Shown piece by piece: positions 27,942 to 33,890 of a DNA stretch of 64,000 nt. The translations under genes and the position numbers were made by a program. Source of the stretch: Pseudomonas fortuita (lineage in GTDB: Bacteria > Pseudomonadota > Gammaproteobacteria > Pseudomonadales > Pseudomonadaceae); contig NZ_CP114035.2 in NCBI RefSeq assembly GCF_026898135.2, forward strand, positions 4,629,501-4,693,500. Direction: 5' to 3'. The notes under the pieces were generated by a model. It had not been told where the DNA came from. It did no database searches and saw only the letters and a program-made list of their open reading frames with translations. Numbering within the stretch: position 1 is the first letter of the stretch; each line of letters begins with the position of its first letter.

Positions 27942-28619
27942 ATGAGCGAGCTGTTACTGATTGATGATGACCAGGAACTGTGCGAGCTGCTCGGCAGCTG
28001 GCTGACCCAGGAAGGGTTCACCGTGCGTGCGTGCCATGATGGCCTGAGCGCACGCCAGGCCCTGGCCGAGCACGCTCCGGCGGCCGTGGTACTGGATGTG
28101 ATGCTGCCCGATGGCAGCGGCCTGGAATTGCTCAAGCAATTGCGCAGCGAGCACACCGAGCTGCCGGTGCTGATGCTCTCTGCACGGGGCGAGCCGCTGG
28201 ACCGCATTCTTGGCCTGGAGCTGGGCGCCGACGACTACCTGGCCAAACCTTGCGACCCGCGCGAGCTCACGGCCCGTCTGCGAGCAGTGTTGCGCCGCAG
28301 CCACCCCACCGCCACCACCAGCCAGGTGGAACTGGGCGACCTGGTGTACAGCCCTGCGCGCGGCGTGGCCAGCATCGACGGCCGTGAAATGACCCTGACC
28401 CTGTCCGAAAGCCGCATTCTTGAAGCCCTGCTGCGCCAGCCTGGCGAACCGCTGGACAAGCAGGAGCTGGCGCAAATCGGCCTGGGGCGCAAACTGACCC
28501 TGTACGACCGCAGCCTGGACATGCATGTCAGTAACCTGCGCAAGAAGATCGGCCCGCATGCCGATGGCAGGCCACGTATCGTGGCGCTGCGTAGCCGTGG
28601 CTATTACTACTGCCTGTAA
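27942..28619 (+). CDS. cpxR: OmpR-family response regulator (CpxR type)
   Basis: This 225-residue protein has a receiver domain with the acidic pocket IDDD (8-10), the phospho-acceptor Asp52 in VLDVMLPDGSG and the lysine of ADDYLAKP. A C-terminal winged helix (LSESRILEALLRQPGEPLDKQEL...DMHVSNLRKKIGPH) follows. It lies upstream of a CpxP-like gene and a sensor kinase, the order of the CpxR-PA3205-CpxS locus in P. aeruginosa. A CpxR-box-like site lies just after it. Confidence 0.88.
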   Translation: MSELLLIDDDQELCELLGSWLTQEGFTVRACHDGLSARQALAEHAPAAVVLDVMLPDGSGLELLKQLRSEHTELPVLMLSARGEPLDRILGLELGADDYLAKPCDPRELTARLRAVLRRSHPTATTSQVELGDLVYSPARGVASIDGREMTLTLSESRILEALLRQPGEPLDKQELAQIGLGRKLTLYDRSLDMHVSNLRKKIGPHADGRPRIVALRSRGYYYCL

Positions 28620-28786: not shown

Positions 28787-29203
28787 ATGCGCAAGACCCT
28801 TATCGCCCTGATGTTCGCCGCCGCCCTGCCGACCGTGGCCATGGCCATGCCTGAAGGCGGCCCGCGTCACGACGGCCCGCATCATCGCGGTGATGCGCCT
28901 TTCCATCAACTGGACCTGAGCCGCGACCAGCGCCAGCAGATCGGCAAGCTGATGGGCGAGCAGATGCAGCAGCGCCGTGACATCACCGAGCGCTACCTGG
29001 CCAAGCTGCCAGCCGCCGACCAGAAAGCCATGAAAGACGAGCTGCAAGCCAGCCGCGACAAGACCGACACTGCGGTGCGCAACCTGCTCAAACCTGAACA
29101 GCAGAAAAAGTTCGACGAACTGCAAAAGGAACGCGCCGCCAAGAAAGCCGAGTGGCAGGAGTTCCAGGCCTGGAAAGCTGAAAAAGGCACCAAGGCTCAG
29201 TAA
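28787..29203 (+). CDS. Spy/CpxP-like periplasmic protein
   Basis: This 138-residue protein has a signal peptide (MRKTLIALMFAAALPTVAMA), a His-rich N-terminus (HDGPHHRGDAPFH) and two LTxxQ-like motifs (LDLSRDQRQQIGKLM and LLKPEQQKKFDELQ) in a helical, charged domain. CpxP and Spy are periplasmic chaperone or sensor modulators. It lies between regulator and kinase. The His cluster might bind metals. Confidence 0.87.
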   Translation: MRKTLIALMFAAALPTVAMAMPEGGPRHDGPHHRGDAPFHQLDLSRDQRQQIGKLMGEQMQQRRDITERYLAKLPAADQKAMKDELQASRDKTDTAVRNLLKPEQQKKFDELQKERAAKKAEWQEFQAWKAEKGTKAQ

Positions 29204-29217
29204 GCTGTCCGCCCGAT

Positions 29218-29249
29218 GCCCGGCCCGCCTCCCCGCGGGCCGGGCTTTT
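29218..29249 (+). terminator. Intrinsic terminator or attenuator between the cpxP-like gene and the kinase
   Basis: The perfect 11-bp arms GCCCGGCCCGC and GCGGGCCGGGC have a 6-nt loop and are followed by TTTT. The kinase ribosome-binding site begins only 10 nt further on, so readthrough must feed the kinase gene. Confidence 0.8.
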
Positions 29250-29269
29250 ACCGTTTACAGGAGGTGCAC

Positions 29270-30604
29270 TTGCGTTCACTGTTCTGGCGCATCCTGGCCA
29301 GTTTCTGGCTGGCTATCACCCTGGTCGCAGGCCTGTCTATCCTGCTGGGCCACATGCTCAACCAGGATGCCTGGATCCTTAGCCGCCACCCGGGCCTGAA
29401 TACCTTGGCCAGCAAGTGGGCCAAGCATTACGAGCAGCAAGGCCTGGATGCGGCACAGCACTTTCTGGAACGGCGCAAAGATCGCTACAAGATCGACGTG
29501 CAGGTACTCGATGACAGTGGCGAGGCCGTGGTGCCCGGCACCTTCCCACGCCGTGCGGCGGCCTTCGAGGCACGCCAGCACAATGACGAGCGGCGCCTGC
29601 CATGGCGTCGGCTGACCGAGGAATACACCAGCCCGGAGACCGGCGAAACCTACCTGCTGATCTACCGCATCCCCCACCCTGCACTGGACGCCTGGCACCG
29701 CGAAAGCCTGATGTGGCCGCTCAGTGCCTTGGGCATTGCGCTGGTGGTACTGACCCTGTTCAGCCTGCTGGTCACCCTGTCCATTACCCGCCCGCTAAGC
29801 CGCCTGCGCAGCGCGGTGCATGACCTGGGGCAGACCACTTACCAGCAGAACAGCCTGGCGCAGCTGGCTGCACGGCGTGACGAGTTTGGCGTGCTGGCCA
29901 AGGACTTCAACAAGATGGGCGCGCGCCTGCAAAGCACCATTGGCAGCCAGCGCCAGTTGCTGCGCGATGTGTCCCATGAGTTGCGCTCGCCGCTGGCCAG
30001 GCTGCGCATTGCCCTGGCTTTGGCCGAGCGCGCCGGGCCTGAGCAGCGGGAGACCTTGTGGCCGCGCCTGACCCGCGAGTGCGACCGGCTGGAAGACCTG
30101 ATCAGCGAAATCCTTGCCTTGGCCCGGGTCGATGCGGAGCAGGCTCATGCCGAGCCGGTCGACCTCAATGCCCTGCTCGGCAGCGTGCGCAAAGACGCCT
30201 TGCTCAGCGCACCGGACCAGGACGTGCGCCTGGAGGCGCAGCCGGGGTTGACCCTGCAAGGTTGGCCGACGCTGATCGAGCGCGCCGTCGACAACCTGCT
30301 GCGCAATGCCCTGCGCTTCAACCCGGTGGGGCAGCCGGTCGAGGTCAGCGCCGTGCGTGAGCAGGACCACATCGTGATCAGCGTGCGTGACCATGGGCCC
30401 GGGGCGGCAGCGGAGCATCTGGCGCAGCTGGGCGAGCCGTTCTTCCGCGCGCCGGGGCAGGACGCGCCAGGGCATGGCCTGGGGCTGGCGATTGCGCGCA
30501 AAGCGGCGGAGCGCCATGGCGGGAGACTGGTGCTGGATAACCACCCACAGGGGGGCTTTGTGGCCAGGCTGGAGTTGCCCTTGGCTGAAGCTACTGGCAG
30601 TTGA
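29270..30604 (+). CDS. cpxA: Sensor histidine kinase (CpxA/CpxS type)
   Basis: This 444-residue kinase has an N-terminal TM (FWRILASFWLAITLVAGLSILLG), a periplasmic domain (about 30-150), TM2 (WPLSALGIALVVLTLFSLLVT), a HAMP domain, the H-box DVSHELRSPLARLRIAL, the N-box NLLRNALRFNP and G-boxes DHGPG and GHGLGLAIARK. A TTG start is used because AGGAGGTGCAC precedes it. The last 21 codons coincide with the first half of the tandem repeat that follows, so copies of its C-terminus are repeated seven times downstream. Confidence 0.9.
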   Translation: MRSLFWRILASFWLAITLVAGLSILLGHMLNQDAWILSRHPGLNTLASKWAKHYEQQGLDAAQHFLERRKDRYKIDVQVLDDSGEAVVPGTFPRRAAAFEARQHNDERRLPWRRLTEEYTSPETGETYLLIYRIPHPALDAWHRESLMWPLSALGIALVVLTLFSLLVTLSITRPLSRLRSAVHDLGQTTYQQNSLAQLAARRDEFGVLAKDFNKMGARLQSTIGSQRQLLRDVSHELRSPLARLRIALALAERAGPEQRETLWPRLTRECDRLEDLISEILALARVDAEQAHAEPVDLNALLGSVRKDALLSAPDQDVRLEAQPGLTLQGWPTLIERAVDNLLRNALRFNPVGQPVEVSAVREQDHIVISVRDHGPGAAAEHLAQLGEPFFRAPGQDAPGHGLGLAIARKAAERHGGRLVLDNHPQGGFVARLELPLAEATGS

Positions 30605-31700
30605 TGTGATGCAAAGGCCACTGGCCTCTTCGCGGGGCAAGCCCGCTCCCACAGGTACGGTGCAGGTATCAGGCAGCGCGGACAACCACCCACAGGGGGG
30701 CTTTGTGGCCAGGCTGGAGTTGCCCTTGGCTGAAGCTACTGGCAGTTGATGTGATGCAAAGGCCACTGGCCTCTTCGCGGGGCAAGCCCGCTCCCACAGG
30801 TACGGTGCAGGTATCAGGCAGCGCGGACAACCATCCACAGGGGGGGGTTGTGGCCAGGCTGGTGCTGCCCTTGGCTGAAGCTGCTGGCAGTTAATGTGAT
30901 GTAAGGGCCACTGGCCTCTTCGCGGGGCAAGCCCGCTCCCACAAGTACGGTGCAGGTATCAGGCAGCGCGGACAACCATCCACAGGGGGGGCTTTGTGGC
31001 CAGGTTGGAGTTGCCCTTGGCTGAAGCTACTGGCAGTTGATGTGATGCAAAGGCCACTGGCCTCTTCGCGGGGCAAGCCCGCTCCCACAAGTACGGTGCA
31101 GGTATCAGGCAGCGCGGACAACCATCCACAGGGGGGGGCTTGGTGGCCAGGCTGGAGTTGCCCTTGGCTGAAGCTACTGGCAGTTGATGTGATGCAAAGG
31201 CCACTGGCCTCTTCGCGGGGCAAGCCCGCTCCCACAGGTACGGTGCAGGTATCAGGCAGCGCGGACAACCATCCACAGGGGGGGCTTTGTGGCCAGGCTG
31301 GAGTTGCCCTTGGCTGAAGCTACTGGCAGTTGATGTGATGCAAAGGCCACTGGCCTCTTCGCGGGGCAAGCCCGCTCCCACAAGTACGGTGCAGGTATCA
31401 GGCAGCGCGGACAACCATCCACAGGGGGGGCTTTGTGGCCAGGCTGGAGTTGCCCTTGGCTGAAGCTACTGGCAGTTGATGTGATGCAAAGGCCACTGGC
31501 CTCTTCGCGGGGCAAGCCCGCTCCCACAGGTACGGTGCAGGTATCAGGCAGCGCGGACAACCATCCACAGGGGGGGCTTGGTGGCCAGGCTGGAGTTGCC
31601 TTTGGCTGAAGCTACTGGCAGTTGATGTGATGTAAAGGCCACTGGCCTCTTCGCGGGGCAAGCCCGCTCCCACAGGTACGGTGCAGGTATCAGGCAGCGC
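30541..31700. repeat. Eight-copy tandem array, unit 145-147 bp (kinase 3' end plus REP)
   Basis: Units begin at 30541, 30686, 30831, 30976, 31122, 31269, 31415 and 31561, each at CCACCCACAG or CCATCCACAG. Each contains a G-run of 6-8, the sequence for the kinase C-terminus (FVARLELPLAEATGS and stop), then CTCTTCGCGGGGCAAGCCCG (a REP) and GGTATCAGGCAGCGCGGACA. Unit 1 is the true end of the kinase gene. Copies differ at few positions, so the array is young or homogenised. Unit-length differences come mainly from the G-run. Neither strand has a credible gene here. Confidence 0.95.
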
Positions 31701-31746
31701 ACAGTACCTGTGGGAGCGGGCTTGCCCCGCGAAGAGGCCAGTGGCC
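31637..31746. repeat. Terminal REPIN of the array, 43-bp perfect arms
   Basis: The left arm 31637-31679 (inside unit 8) and right arm 31704-31746 are perfect reverse complements over 43 bp, with a 24-bp loop. Only the last unit has the inverted partner, so the ancestral state was probably one kinase gene followed by one REPIN. Confidence 0.93.
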
Positions 31747-31775
31747 CTGATGCAATAAATCAGCCCCAGGCTGCG

Positions 31776-32333
31776 TTACTCGCCCCAGGCGCTGACGAAC
31801 TCGGTAGTGTCCAGCACCGGCGCAGTGCGCGGCTCGGTCAGCGGCGTGCCGACATACAGGTAACCGATCAACTCTTCATTCTGGGCCAGACCCAGGCCCT
31901 TGTGCACATGGGCATCGAAGGCCATGTCCCCGGTACGCCACACCGCCCCGATGCCTTGCGCATGCGCGGCAATCAGAATGCCGTGCGCCGCACAGCCGGC
32001 TGCCAGACGCTGCTCGGACTTGGGCACCTTGAAGTGGTCCTGCAGCTTGGCGATCACCACGATCAGCAGCGGCGCCCGCAGCGGCATGGCGCGGGCCTTG
32101 TCCAGCGCAGCCTGGCTGGCTTCGCCCTTGTTCTGCACCGCTTCAGCGAACAGCTCACCCAGCTTTTCACGGCCCTGGCCCTCGATGGTCAGGAAGCGCC
32201 ATGGTCGCAGCTGGCCATGATCCGGGGCGCGCAAGGCAGCCTGGAACAGCGCCTCGCGCTGTGCGGCATTGGGTGCCGGGTCAGTCAGGCGTGGCACGGA
32301 AACACGGTTGAGCAATGCGTCGAGAGCCTCCAT
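31776..32333 (-). CDS. Nitroreductase-family protein (YdjA type)
   Basis: This 185-residue FMN-dependent nitroreductase fold has the YdjA-like start ALLNRVSVPRLTDPAPN and the APDHGQLRPWRFLTIEGQ signature, then GIGAVWRTGDMAF. The small size matches YdjA, a minimal nitroreductase with unclear natural substrate. It is divergent from trkH. Confidence 0.9.
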   Translation of the reverse strand: MEALDALLNRVSVPRLTDPAPNAAQREALFQAALRAPDHGQLRPWRFLTIEGQGREKLGELFAEAVQNKGEASQAALDKARAMPLRAPLLIVVIAKLQDHFKVPKSEQRLAAGCAAHGILIAAHAQGIGAVWRTGDMAFDAHVHKGLGLAQNEELIGYLYVGTPLTEPRTAPVLDTTEFVSAWGE

Positions 32334-32435
32334 CGGCTACCCTCCTGGCAGTTGAATGTGCGGCCATTCTAGCGTTTACATCACCAGACCCATAGGTAGA
32401 ATGGCGCCCTTCCGTTTCGAGTCAGAGCAGATCAC

Positions 32436-33890
32436 ATGGCGTTGCCGACCTTAAGGATCATTGGTTTCATCATCGGCATCTTCCTGATTACCCTCGCCGT
32501 CGGCATGGCTGTGCCCATGGCGACCCTGGTGATCTTCGAGCGCACTGGTGACATGCCCTCCTTCCTCTGGTCGAGCCTGATCACCTTCATCGCCGGCCTG
32601 GCCCTGGTGGTACAGGGCCGCCCCGAGCATGTCCACCTGCGCCCGCGTGACATGTACCTGCTCACGGTCAGCAGCTGGCTGGTGGTGTGCGTGTTTGCCG
32701 CCCTGCCGTTCCTGCTGACCCAGCACATCAGCTACACCGACGCCTTCTTCGAGAGCATGTCGGGCATCACCGCTACCGGCGCTACCGTACTCAGCGGGCT
32801 CGATAACATGTCGCCGGGTATTCTCATGTGGCGCTCGATGCTTCACTGGCTCGGCGGCATCGGCTTCATCGCCATGGCGGTGGCGATCCTGCCATTGCTG
32901 CGCATCGGCGGCATGCGCCTGTTCCAGACCGAATCGTCCGACCGCTCGGAAAAGGTCATGCCACGCTCGCACATGGTGGCCAAGTCGATCGTGGGGGTGT
33001 ACGTCGGCTTCTCTATCCTCGGCTCGCTGGCCTTCTGGTGGGCGGGGATGAGCCCGTTCGATGCAATCAACCACGCCATGTCGGCAATCTCCACCGGCGG
33101 CTTCTCCACCTCCGACCAGTCGCTGGCAAAATGGGATATCCCGGCCGTGCACTGGGTCGCGGTGGTGGTCATGATCATGGGCAGCCTGCCGTTCACCCTT
33201 TACGTCGCGACCCTGCGTGGCAACCGCAGGGCGCTGATCCGTGACCAGCAGGTGCAAGGTTTGCTGGGCATGCTGGTGGTTACCTGGTTGGTCCTGGGCA
33301 CCTGGTACTGGTACAGCACCAACCTGCACTGGCTCGATGCCCTGCGCCACGTAGCCTTGAACGTGACCTCGGTGGTCACTACCACCGGCTTCGCCCTGGG
33401 CGACTACAGCCTGTGGGGCAACTTTTCGCTGATGCTGTTCTTCTACCTGGGCTTCGTCGGCGGCTGCTCCGGCTCGACCGCAGGCGGTATCAAGATTTTC
33501 CGCTTCCAGGTGGCCTACATCCTGCTCAAGGCCAGCCTCAACCAACTGATCCACCCGCGTGCGGTGATCAAGCAGAAATACAACGGCCACCGCCTCGACG
33601 AAGACATCGTGCGCTCGATTCTGACGTTCTCGTTCTTCTTCGCCATCACCATCTGCGTCATGGCCCTGTTGCTGTCGTTGCTGGGCGTGGACTGGATGAC
33701 CGCATTGACCGGCGCTGCCGGCACAGTTTCGGGTGTAGGCCCGGGCTTGGGTGAAGTGATCGGCCCGTCGGGCAACTATGCCACGCTGCCGGACGCGGCC
33801 AAGTGGATCCTGGCGGCCGGCATGCTGCTTGGCCGCCTGGAAATCATTACGGTGCTGGTGCTGTGTATGCCGGCGTTCTGGCGTCACTGA
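32436..33890 (+). CDS. trkH: Trk potassium uptake protein TrkH
   Basis: This 484-residue membrane protein has 10-12 hydrophobic segments. The four pore-loop selectivity regions appear near MSGITATGATVLSGLDNMSPG, AISTGGFSTSDQS, VVTTTGFALGDYS and GTVSGVGPGLGEVIGP. It imports K+ with cytoplasmic TrkA (not in the window). Its last 44 bp overlap the end of the convergent AraC gene. Confidence 0.95.
   Translation: MALPTLRIIGFIIGIFLITLAVGMAVPMATLVIFERTGDMPSFLWSSLITFIAGLALVVQGRPEHVHLRPRDMYLLTVSSWLVVCVFAALPFLLTQHISYTDAFFESMSGITATGATVLSGLDNMSPGILMWRSMLHWLGGIGFIAMAVAILPLLRIGGMRLFQTESSDRSEKVMPRSHMVAKSIVGVYVGFSILGSLAFWWAGMSPFDAINHAMSAISTGGFSTSDQSLAKWDIPAVHWVAVVVMIMGSLPFTLYVATLRGNRRALIRDQQVQGLLGMLVVTWLVLGTWYWYSTNLHWLDALRHVALNVTSVVTTTGFALGDYSLWGNFSLMLFFYLGFVGGCSGSTAGGIKIFRFQVAYILLKASLNQLIHPRAVIKQKYNGHRLDEDIVRSILTFSFFFAITICVMALLLSLLGVDWMTALTGAAGTVSGVGPGLGEVIGPSGNYATLPDAAKWILAAGMLLGRLEIITVLVLCMPAFWRH

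Follow-up and report, generated by a model that had tools for sequence, protein, structure and literature searches.

Tandem copies of a sensor kinase gene tail and one REPIN arm in Pseudomonas fortuita, with a proposed origin by duplication at the REPIN

Tandem clusters of REPs or REPINs that carry flanking DNA along are, at the level of sequence, already known. Those of Pseudomonas fluorescens SBW25, in the parts of the literature cited here, consist of near-identical head-to-tail units, each a whole REPIN with both its flanks; the largest comprises four REPINs and a REP over more than 700 bp, and evenly spaced tandem single REPs are likewise named for this strain, with no detail given on their junctions (Bertels and Rainey, 2011; PMC3116915). 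Large clusters of GTAG-REPs, for which P. putida is among the species discussed, reiterate singletons or dimers together with flanking DNA, and these REPs are concentrated where convergent genes have their 3' ends (PMC3733652). In E. coli, tandem REP units occur as BIME-2, which is built of inverted REP pairs and for which gyrase binding has been reported (PMC2817692, PMC3686654). On how such clusters form, the text on SBW25 speaks of 'a second mechanism' (PMC3116915).

The array described here lies in a 64,000-nucleotide stretch of the Pseudomonas fortuita genome (the window), whose assembly is a single 6.31-Mb contig. TRF places it at 30535-31700, with a period of 146, 8.0 copies, 96% matches and a score of 2176; the remaining two arrays in the 64-kb window score just 54 and 52. 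Each unit begins with the end of a sensor kinase gene (the last 22 sense codons and the stop); a spacer comes next, then a REPIN's left arm with the loop (Table 1). TRF and the alignment of the units confirm the eight head-to-tail units of 145-147 bp proposed by the first-pass annotation from inspection of the sequence; its figure of 21 codons holds if the tail is counted from AAC, the unit actually having 22 codons before the stop. The inverted REP does, as was claimed, follow unit 8 only. The two arms of this REPIN, 48 nt each, are separated by a 14-nt gap, and their perfect stretch, read off the sequence, is 43 bp long (31637-31679 / 31704-31746), again in agreement with the first-pass annotation. 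Eight REPs at the array are in plus orientation and one in minus. The left arm of unit 1 still adjoins the kinase stop without a partner arm nearby. Most of the array sits between the stop codons of the kinase and the convergent nitroreductase gene, and the REPIN is the 3' flank of the latter too. Reading frames through the array on both strands were rejected as genes: three does not divide the usual period, and the frames would include translated REP.

Table 1. Coordinates of the genes, repeat units and closing REP arm at the kinase locus (positions in the window)
Feature	Position	Strand	Length (bp)	Description
OmpR-type response regulator, CpxR-like	27942..28619	+		Pfam Response_reg, Trans_reg_C; best NCBIfam model CpxR, 193.7 bits, under the cut-off of 341
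Small periplasmic Spy/CpxP-like protein	28787..29203	+		LTXXQ and Metal_resist weak, Spy model 26.7 bits; all under cut-off
CpxA-like sensor histidine kinase	29270..30604	+		HAMP, HisKA, HATPase_c
Unit 1	30535..30679	+	145	Sole unit read as kinase: 22 codons and stop, spacer, left REP arm, loop
Unit 2	30680..30824	+	145	G6 run; one substitution relative to unit 1
Unit 3	30825..30969	+	145	Most divergent, 7-11 substitutions relative to the others; G8 by substitution, length unchanged
Unit 4	30970..31115	+	146	G7 run
Unit 5	31116..31262	+	147	G8 run
Unit 6	31263..31408	+	146	G7 run
Unit 7	31409..31554	+	146	G7 run; differs least from the rest
Unit 8	31555..31700	+	146	G7 run; left REP arm 31637-31684 pairs with the lone right arm
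Right REP arm, single, closing the REPIN	31699..31746	-		98% complementary to 31637-31684
Convergent NAD(P)H nitroreductase	31776..32333	-		Pfam Nitroreductase; NF008088 187.3 bits, over the cut-off of 183

For the kinase gene, which ends in TGA at 30602-30604, we infer a TTG start at 29270 with AGGAGGT ahead of it. The earlier CpxA-type label fits, in that the top two NCBIfam models are both CpxA, though far under their cut-offs (196.5 of 800 and 174.4 of 486 bits). The nearest named loci belong to the P. putida group.

Unit 1 is the only coding unit. Read as kinase tails, units 4-8 are frameshifted and unit 3 is substituted, and pairs of units differ by 1-11 substitutions (mean divergence 3.15%). 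A G-run that measures G6 at 30550-30555 in unit 1, and also in unit 2, measures G7-G8 in units 3-8; this homopolymer is lengthened in units where the kinase frame is not read. The kinase gene body has diverged by 5.5% from that of the closest of five genomes compared (G253), and faster drift is usual for non-coding DNA. With its units only 3.15% apart, the array is thus probably younger than the split from G253, although exchange between units can lower divergence as well. G253 and units 3-8 carry ACCATCC and units 1 and 2 the derived ACCACCC, which indicates that, with the array already present, unit 1 either served as template for unit 2 or took part in an exchange with it, a sign of later exchange or re-copying.

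Recombination between units had been expected always to rebuild the same kinase C-terminus. Simulated exchanges between unit 1 and each other unit show that this is not strictly right: the protein is kept at 147/147 columns with unit 2, at 133/147 with units 4, 6 and 7, at 123/147 with units 5 and 8, and at 89/147 with unit 3. At the other exchange columns residues are substituted, or the tail loses five residues or gains three (unit 3) or 44 (unit 5). Exchanges within units 2-8 leave the kinase gene untouched.

As far as seen, the array looks lineage-specific. No tandem with a period of at least 40 was found from 150 bp before to 2.5 kb after the kinase stop at any of 78 related loci, a set that includes many drafts (L087 covers only 186 bp and L050 1,752 bp behind the stop). 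A search of 398 Pseudomonas genomes, one per species and overlapping in part with the 78 loci, in which the two best candidate places per genome were scored, returned unit matches (E<=1e-20) in 14: eight in this genome and one each in 13 others, the 384 genomes without any unit match saying little on the absence of the array. Given these counts (0 of 78 loci tandem, 13 of 397 other species-level genomes with a single match), the suggestion that the array is a fast-evolving marker is plausible. A plasmid search with the locus gave one record, whose eight short matching segments add up to 13% of the query. A protein search for strain variants, made with the spurious minus-strand frame of the array, found none, with three weak matches among 361 candidates. 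In P. capeferrum 20A1 (L087, 2888-3352), the orthologous kinase gene is preceded by an 80-bp unit in 5.8 copies, with one REP-like site close to its start.

Relatives often have a hairpin between the kinase and nitroreductase genes. Where both genes lie within 600 bp (75 relatives; three of the 78 loci do not qualify), a stem of at least 10 bp is found in 57 and of at least 20 bp in 33, and since 18 have no 10-bp stem between the genes, the hairpin is common, not universal. In the 33 relatives with the longer stem it begins a median of 18 nt behind the kinase stop (range 5-133; at most 25 nt in 31 of them). The visible effect of the array is that the strong hairpin now begins, with the stem of the last unit, 1,032 nt behind that stop rather than near it. 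The sequence of the intergenic hairpin turns over, and among the 40 closest relatives listed some retain just a short outer stem.

REP-bearing arrays also occur elsewhere. A sample of 2.0 Mb taken at even spacing, with 800 kb from this genome and 400 kb from each of three relatives, held 13 distinct TRF arrays with periods of 40-1000, of which seven overlap a REP, counting one known before sampling (L180, identical to L013) and one that merely touches a REP at its edge (L139). Random placement gave a mean of 0.84 REP-bearing arrays and a maximum of 5, and 0 of 20,000 runs reached 7. By genome, the REP-bearing share was 4/4 in this one and 1/3, 1/2 and 1/4 in the relatives; the 3/9 outside this genome counts against the origin proposed below.

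Six further arrays have a gene tail in the unit, two of them in this genome. Four share the architecture of the window array, each with its gene tail: L010 of this genome (9 codons of an NRDE-like gene, 116 bp x3, a single right arm; the convergent neighbour is a ptsP-like gene), L236 of G359 (about 10 codons of a LysR gene, 127 bp x2; the convergent neighbour is an ispD-like gene), L300 of G057, a mirror image (7 codons of a hydrolase-like gene, 99 bp x3), and L345 of G108 (3 codons of a GGDEF-like gene, 90 bp x2). L353 of G307 repeats about 16 codons of a lytic transglycosylase gene with a lone REP that has no partner (86 bp x3.8), and L013 of this genome repeats both gene tails with a whole REPIN (298 bp x2). 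The codon counts were made by eye, and the names NRDE, ptsP, ispD, hydrolase and GGDEF are readings of the translations; the LysR and transglycosylase genes have NCBIfam support below cut-off, and no NCBIfam family matched the L010 and L300 genes. Our verdict is that these arrays, that of the window included, appear to reflect a recurrent REPIN-linked duplication process.

Arrays of other kinds were seen alongside. Mirror-image arrays without a gene tail are L011 (73 bp x3) and L302 (757-1748; G000:C1:1151556-1152547), whose unit of REPIN loop and right arm, 71 bp x14, exceeds the window array in copy number. At L189 (2801-4008; G000:C1:3562801-3564008), a 148-bp unit with both REP arms is repeated about eight times, giving 16 REPs between a cytochrome-like gene (a reading of its translation) and a convergent gene. 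The 40-bp unit of L139 (17862-18167; G000:C1:377862-378167), repeated 7.7 times, is apparently inside an enlarged REPIN loop, between a plus and a minus REP; a Y1_Tnp match (377302-377622) lies about 240 bp away. L219 (1-10276; G359:C1:350001-360276) has three large arrays without REPs, with periods of 651, 672 and 300 bp, possibly a repeat-rich coding region.

At the junction between units of the window array, GCGC is joined to GGAC with 0 nt of microhomology, as judged against the kinase end of G253. By eye, the joins of L010, L236, L300 and L347 have 0-2 nt of homology; those of L346, L349 and L352 have about 3-5 nt, and that of L353, the array with a lone REP, has about 10 nt. A script run over all loci gave 28 candidate arrays, of which 14 were retained; 12 were dropped for a full or diverged second arm inside the unit (break at +18 or more) and L318 and L330 because nothing matched upstream, while arrays noticed by eye that the script did not pick up (L011, L302 and L350, together with the L344 group) stand outside the 14. 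Relative to the base of the second REP stem, the 14 breaks fall at -23, -15 (the window array), -13, -9, -4, -2, -1, 0, +1, +1, +1, +1, +6 and +7; L239 and L346 score +7 and +6 since their alignment continues over a mismatch, and L348 and L327 have weak upstream matches. Ten of 14 breaks lie in -4..+7 and eight in -4..+1 (chance 0.0005 and 0.00012, respectively, uniform over 46 positions), windows that were picked after the data were seen, at loci many of which came from REP-pattern searches, so that the clustering of REPIN breaks at the second REP stem base is a strong hint and not a test. Two same-direction REPs with a cut right arm are common to five genomes (L324, L326, L331, L332, L344; about 2.2-3.1 kb, 82-95% identity). 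This shared arrangement is probably old and inherited, so structures of this type can be old.

We consider it fairly probable that the tandem array was born at the REPIN, by a duplication through stalling and template switching, and later grew by exchange between units. The ancestor would have had the kinase and the convergent nitroreductase genes with one hairpin-forming REPIN between their stops. In one duplication, position 31700, in the REPIN interior at the inner edge of the right arm, would have been joined back without homology to 30535, 22 codons before the kinase stop, yielding two copies of tail, left arm and loop with one right arm. The likely trigger would be DNA synthesis that passed the left arm and loop, stalled near the second arm and re-primed upstream in the last codons. 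This first duplication would supply homology through which later exchange or slippage could raise the number to eight, growth that would be nearly neutral; with only unit 1 read, the protein stays as it was. Against stalling, the window array has its break off the hotspot, 15 nt short of the stem base and towards the loop; stalling would also predict breaks where the first arm has its outer base, a place that the array collection sees poorly. A more tentative generalization, possible though we would not favour it, is that each REPIN acts as a duplicator and breaks at a defined point. Synthesis, or nicking by a RAYT, would repeatedly end at the second REP stem base and restart upstream, so that the 3' end of the neighbouring gene is copied with one arm; captured tails would alter only the 3' UTR, parting gene from hairpin with the protein intact.

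Other origins are less probable to differing degrees. REP-REP recombination in enterobacteria can give duplications, and growth from two to eight units fits exchange between units, but ordinary unequal crossing-over between pre-existing REP copies is a very improbable source of the array: it would leave a REP at the join, and the actual join runs from loop to coding tail with 0 nt of homology. REP-REP crossing-over was accordingly rejected as the birth step. Eight 146-bp units are longer than short reads, which would invite an assembly artefact; this is the least probable explanation of all, as the units differ by up to 11 substitutions and have distinct G-runs, which speaks against simple assembly duplication, one contig represents the whole genome, and similar arrays occur in other assemblies. 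The main rival to stalling, itself unlikely, is a RAYT (TnpA-REP) that nicks beside the GTGG head of the right REP, the free 3' end with tail, left arm and loop then priming repair synthesis upstream. Four Y1_Tnp matches above the Pfam cut-off mark putative RAYTs in this genome, and 10 of the 14 breaks adjoin the GTRG head of the second REP. TnpA-REP of E. coli, as described in PMC8266576, cuts single-stranded REPs on the 5' or the 3' side of the structure, depends on GTAG and frees a 3'-OH, from which replication might be primed. Its cut, however, falls between C and T (which may not be that of P. putida RAYTs), whereas most of the ten breaks are 3' of GTGG, at or near the end of TGTGGGAG, and that of the window array precedes TGTGGGAG by 8 nt.

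The array might instead have been selected because it tunes 3' processing of the kinase or nitroreductase mRNA or binds gyrase as BIME-2 of E. coli does, a reading we rate as even less likely than the RAYT nick. The frequency of the hairpin between these genes (57/75 relatives) speaks for it. In E. coli, REPs at most 15 nt from a stop can lower translation, according to part of PMC12306157, and a hairpin moved 1 kb away could raise kinase translation; the median of 18 nt in relatives is, however, already past that limit. The downstream units show frameshifts and drift, 0 of 78 related loci are tandem, and the 13 other genomes with a unit match have no second copy. No Rfam match was found in the whole window and no intrinsic terminator (GC hairpin with U-run) at the REPIN itself; a weak terminator site at 31761-31773 on the minus strand adjoins the nitroreductase stop, and the 29100-32500 region has 2 terminator sites, compared with 2.2 in shuffles. 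IHF binding, also proposed earlier, finds no counterpart in 30531-31780, where nothing matches the consensus WATCARNNNNTTR. Copying of gene tail and REP probably changes just the untranslated end of the message, and the array's own function is probably slight.

Among known systems, the locus has the two inverted, hairpin-forming REPs of a REPIN, in a genome with putative RAYTs and dispersed REP copies (at least 91 among the matches listed, with 40 of 648 candidate places scored). By eye, TGTGGGAGCGGGC..GCCCCGCGAA agrees with the P. putida class Pput1, given as TGTGGGAGCGGGCgTGCCCGCGAA in a part of PMC2817692. Membership in BIME-2 was rejected, as it requires alternating orientation, and the array has its eight left arms all one way. 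Among the open-access titles and abstract openings listed by our literature searches, in which subscription papers are mostly not represented, none concerns units made of gene tail and REP, or breaks at the base of a REP stem.

A comparable placement is known from Mycobacterium, where MIRUs such as those at senX3-regX3 repeat in tandem across the stop codon that ends a sensor kinase gene and vary between strains; they form a dispersed family that is not known to have a REP or hairpin basis. The array agrees with GTAG-family clusters in that REP singletons are reiterated with flanking DNA, here in eight units; excerpts of PMC3733652 describe those clusters without junction mapping or gene-tail units. 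The SBW25 unit, as presented in passages of PMC3116915, is 5' flank, complete REPIN and 3' flank, whereas the window unit has one arm and a coding flank with its stop, the partner arm remaining single. Judged on its sequence, the array is thus an unusual variant of the known clusters, with one arm multiplied, its partner single and a coding tail inside. One multiplied arm with a unique partner reveals the side that was copied and the point at which copying stopped, so that the mechanism can be read from the junctions and tested with RAYT and repair mutants, and natural pairs of one-unit and many-unit loci offer a test of how a 3' REPIN affects the preceding gene.
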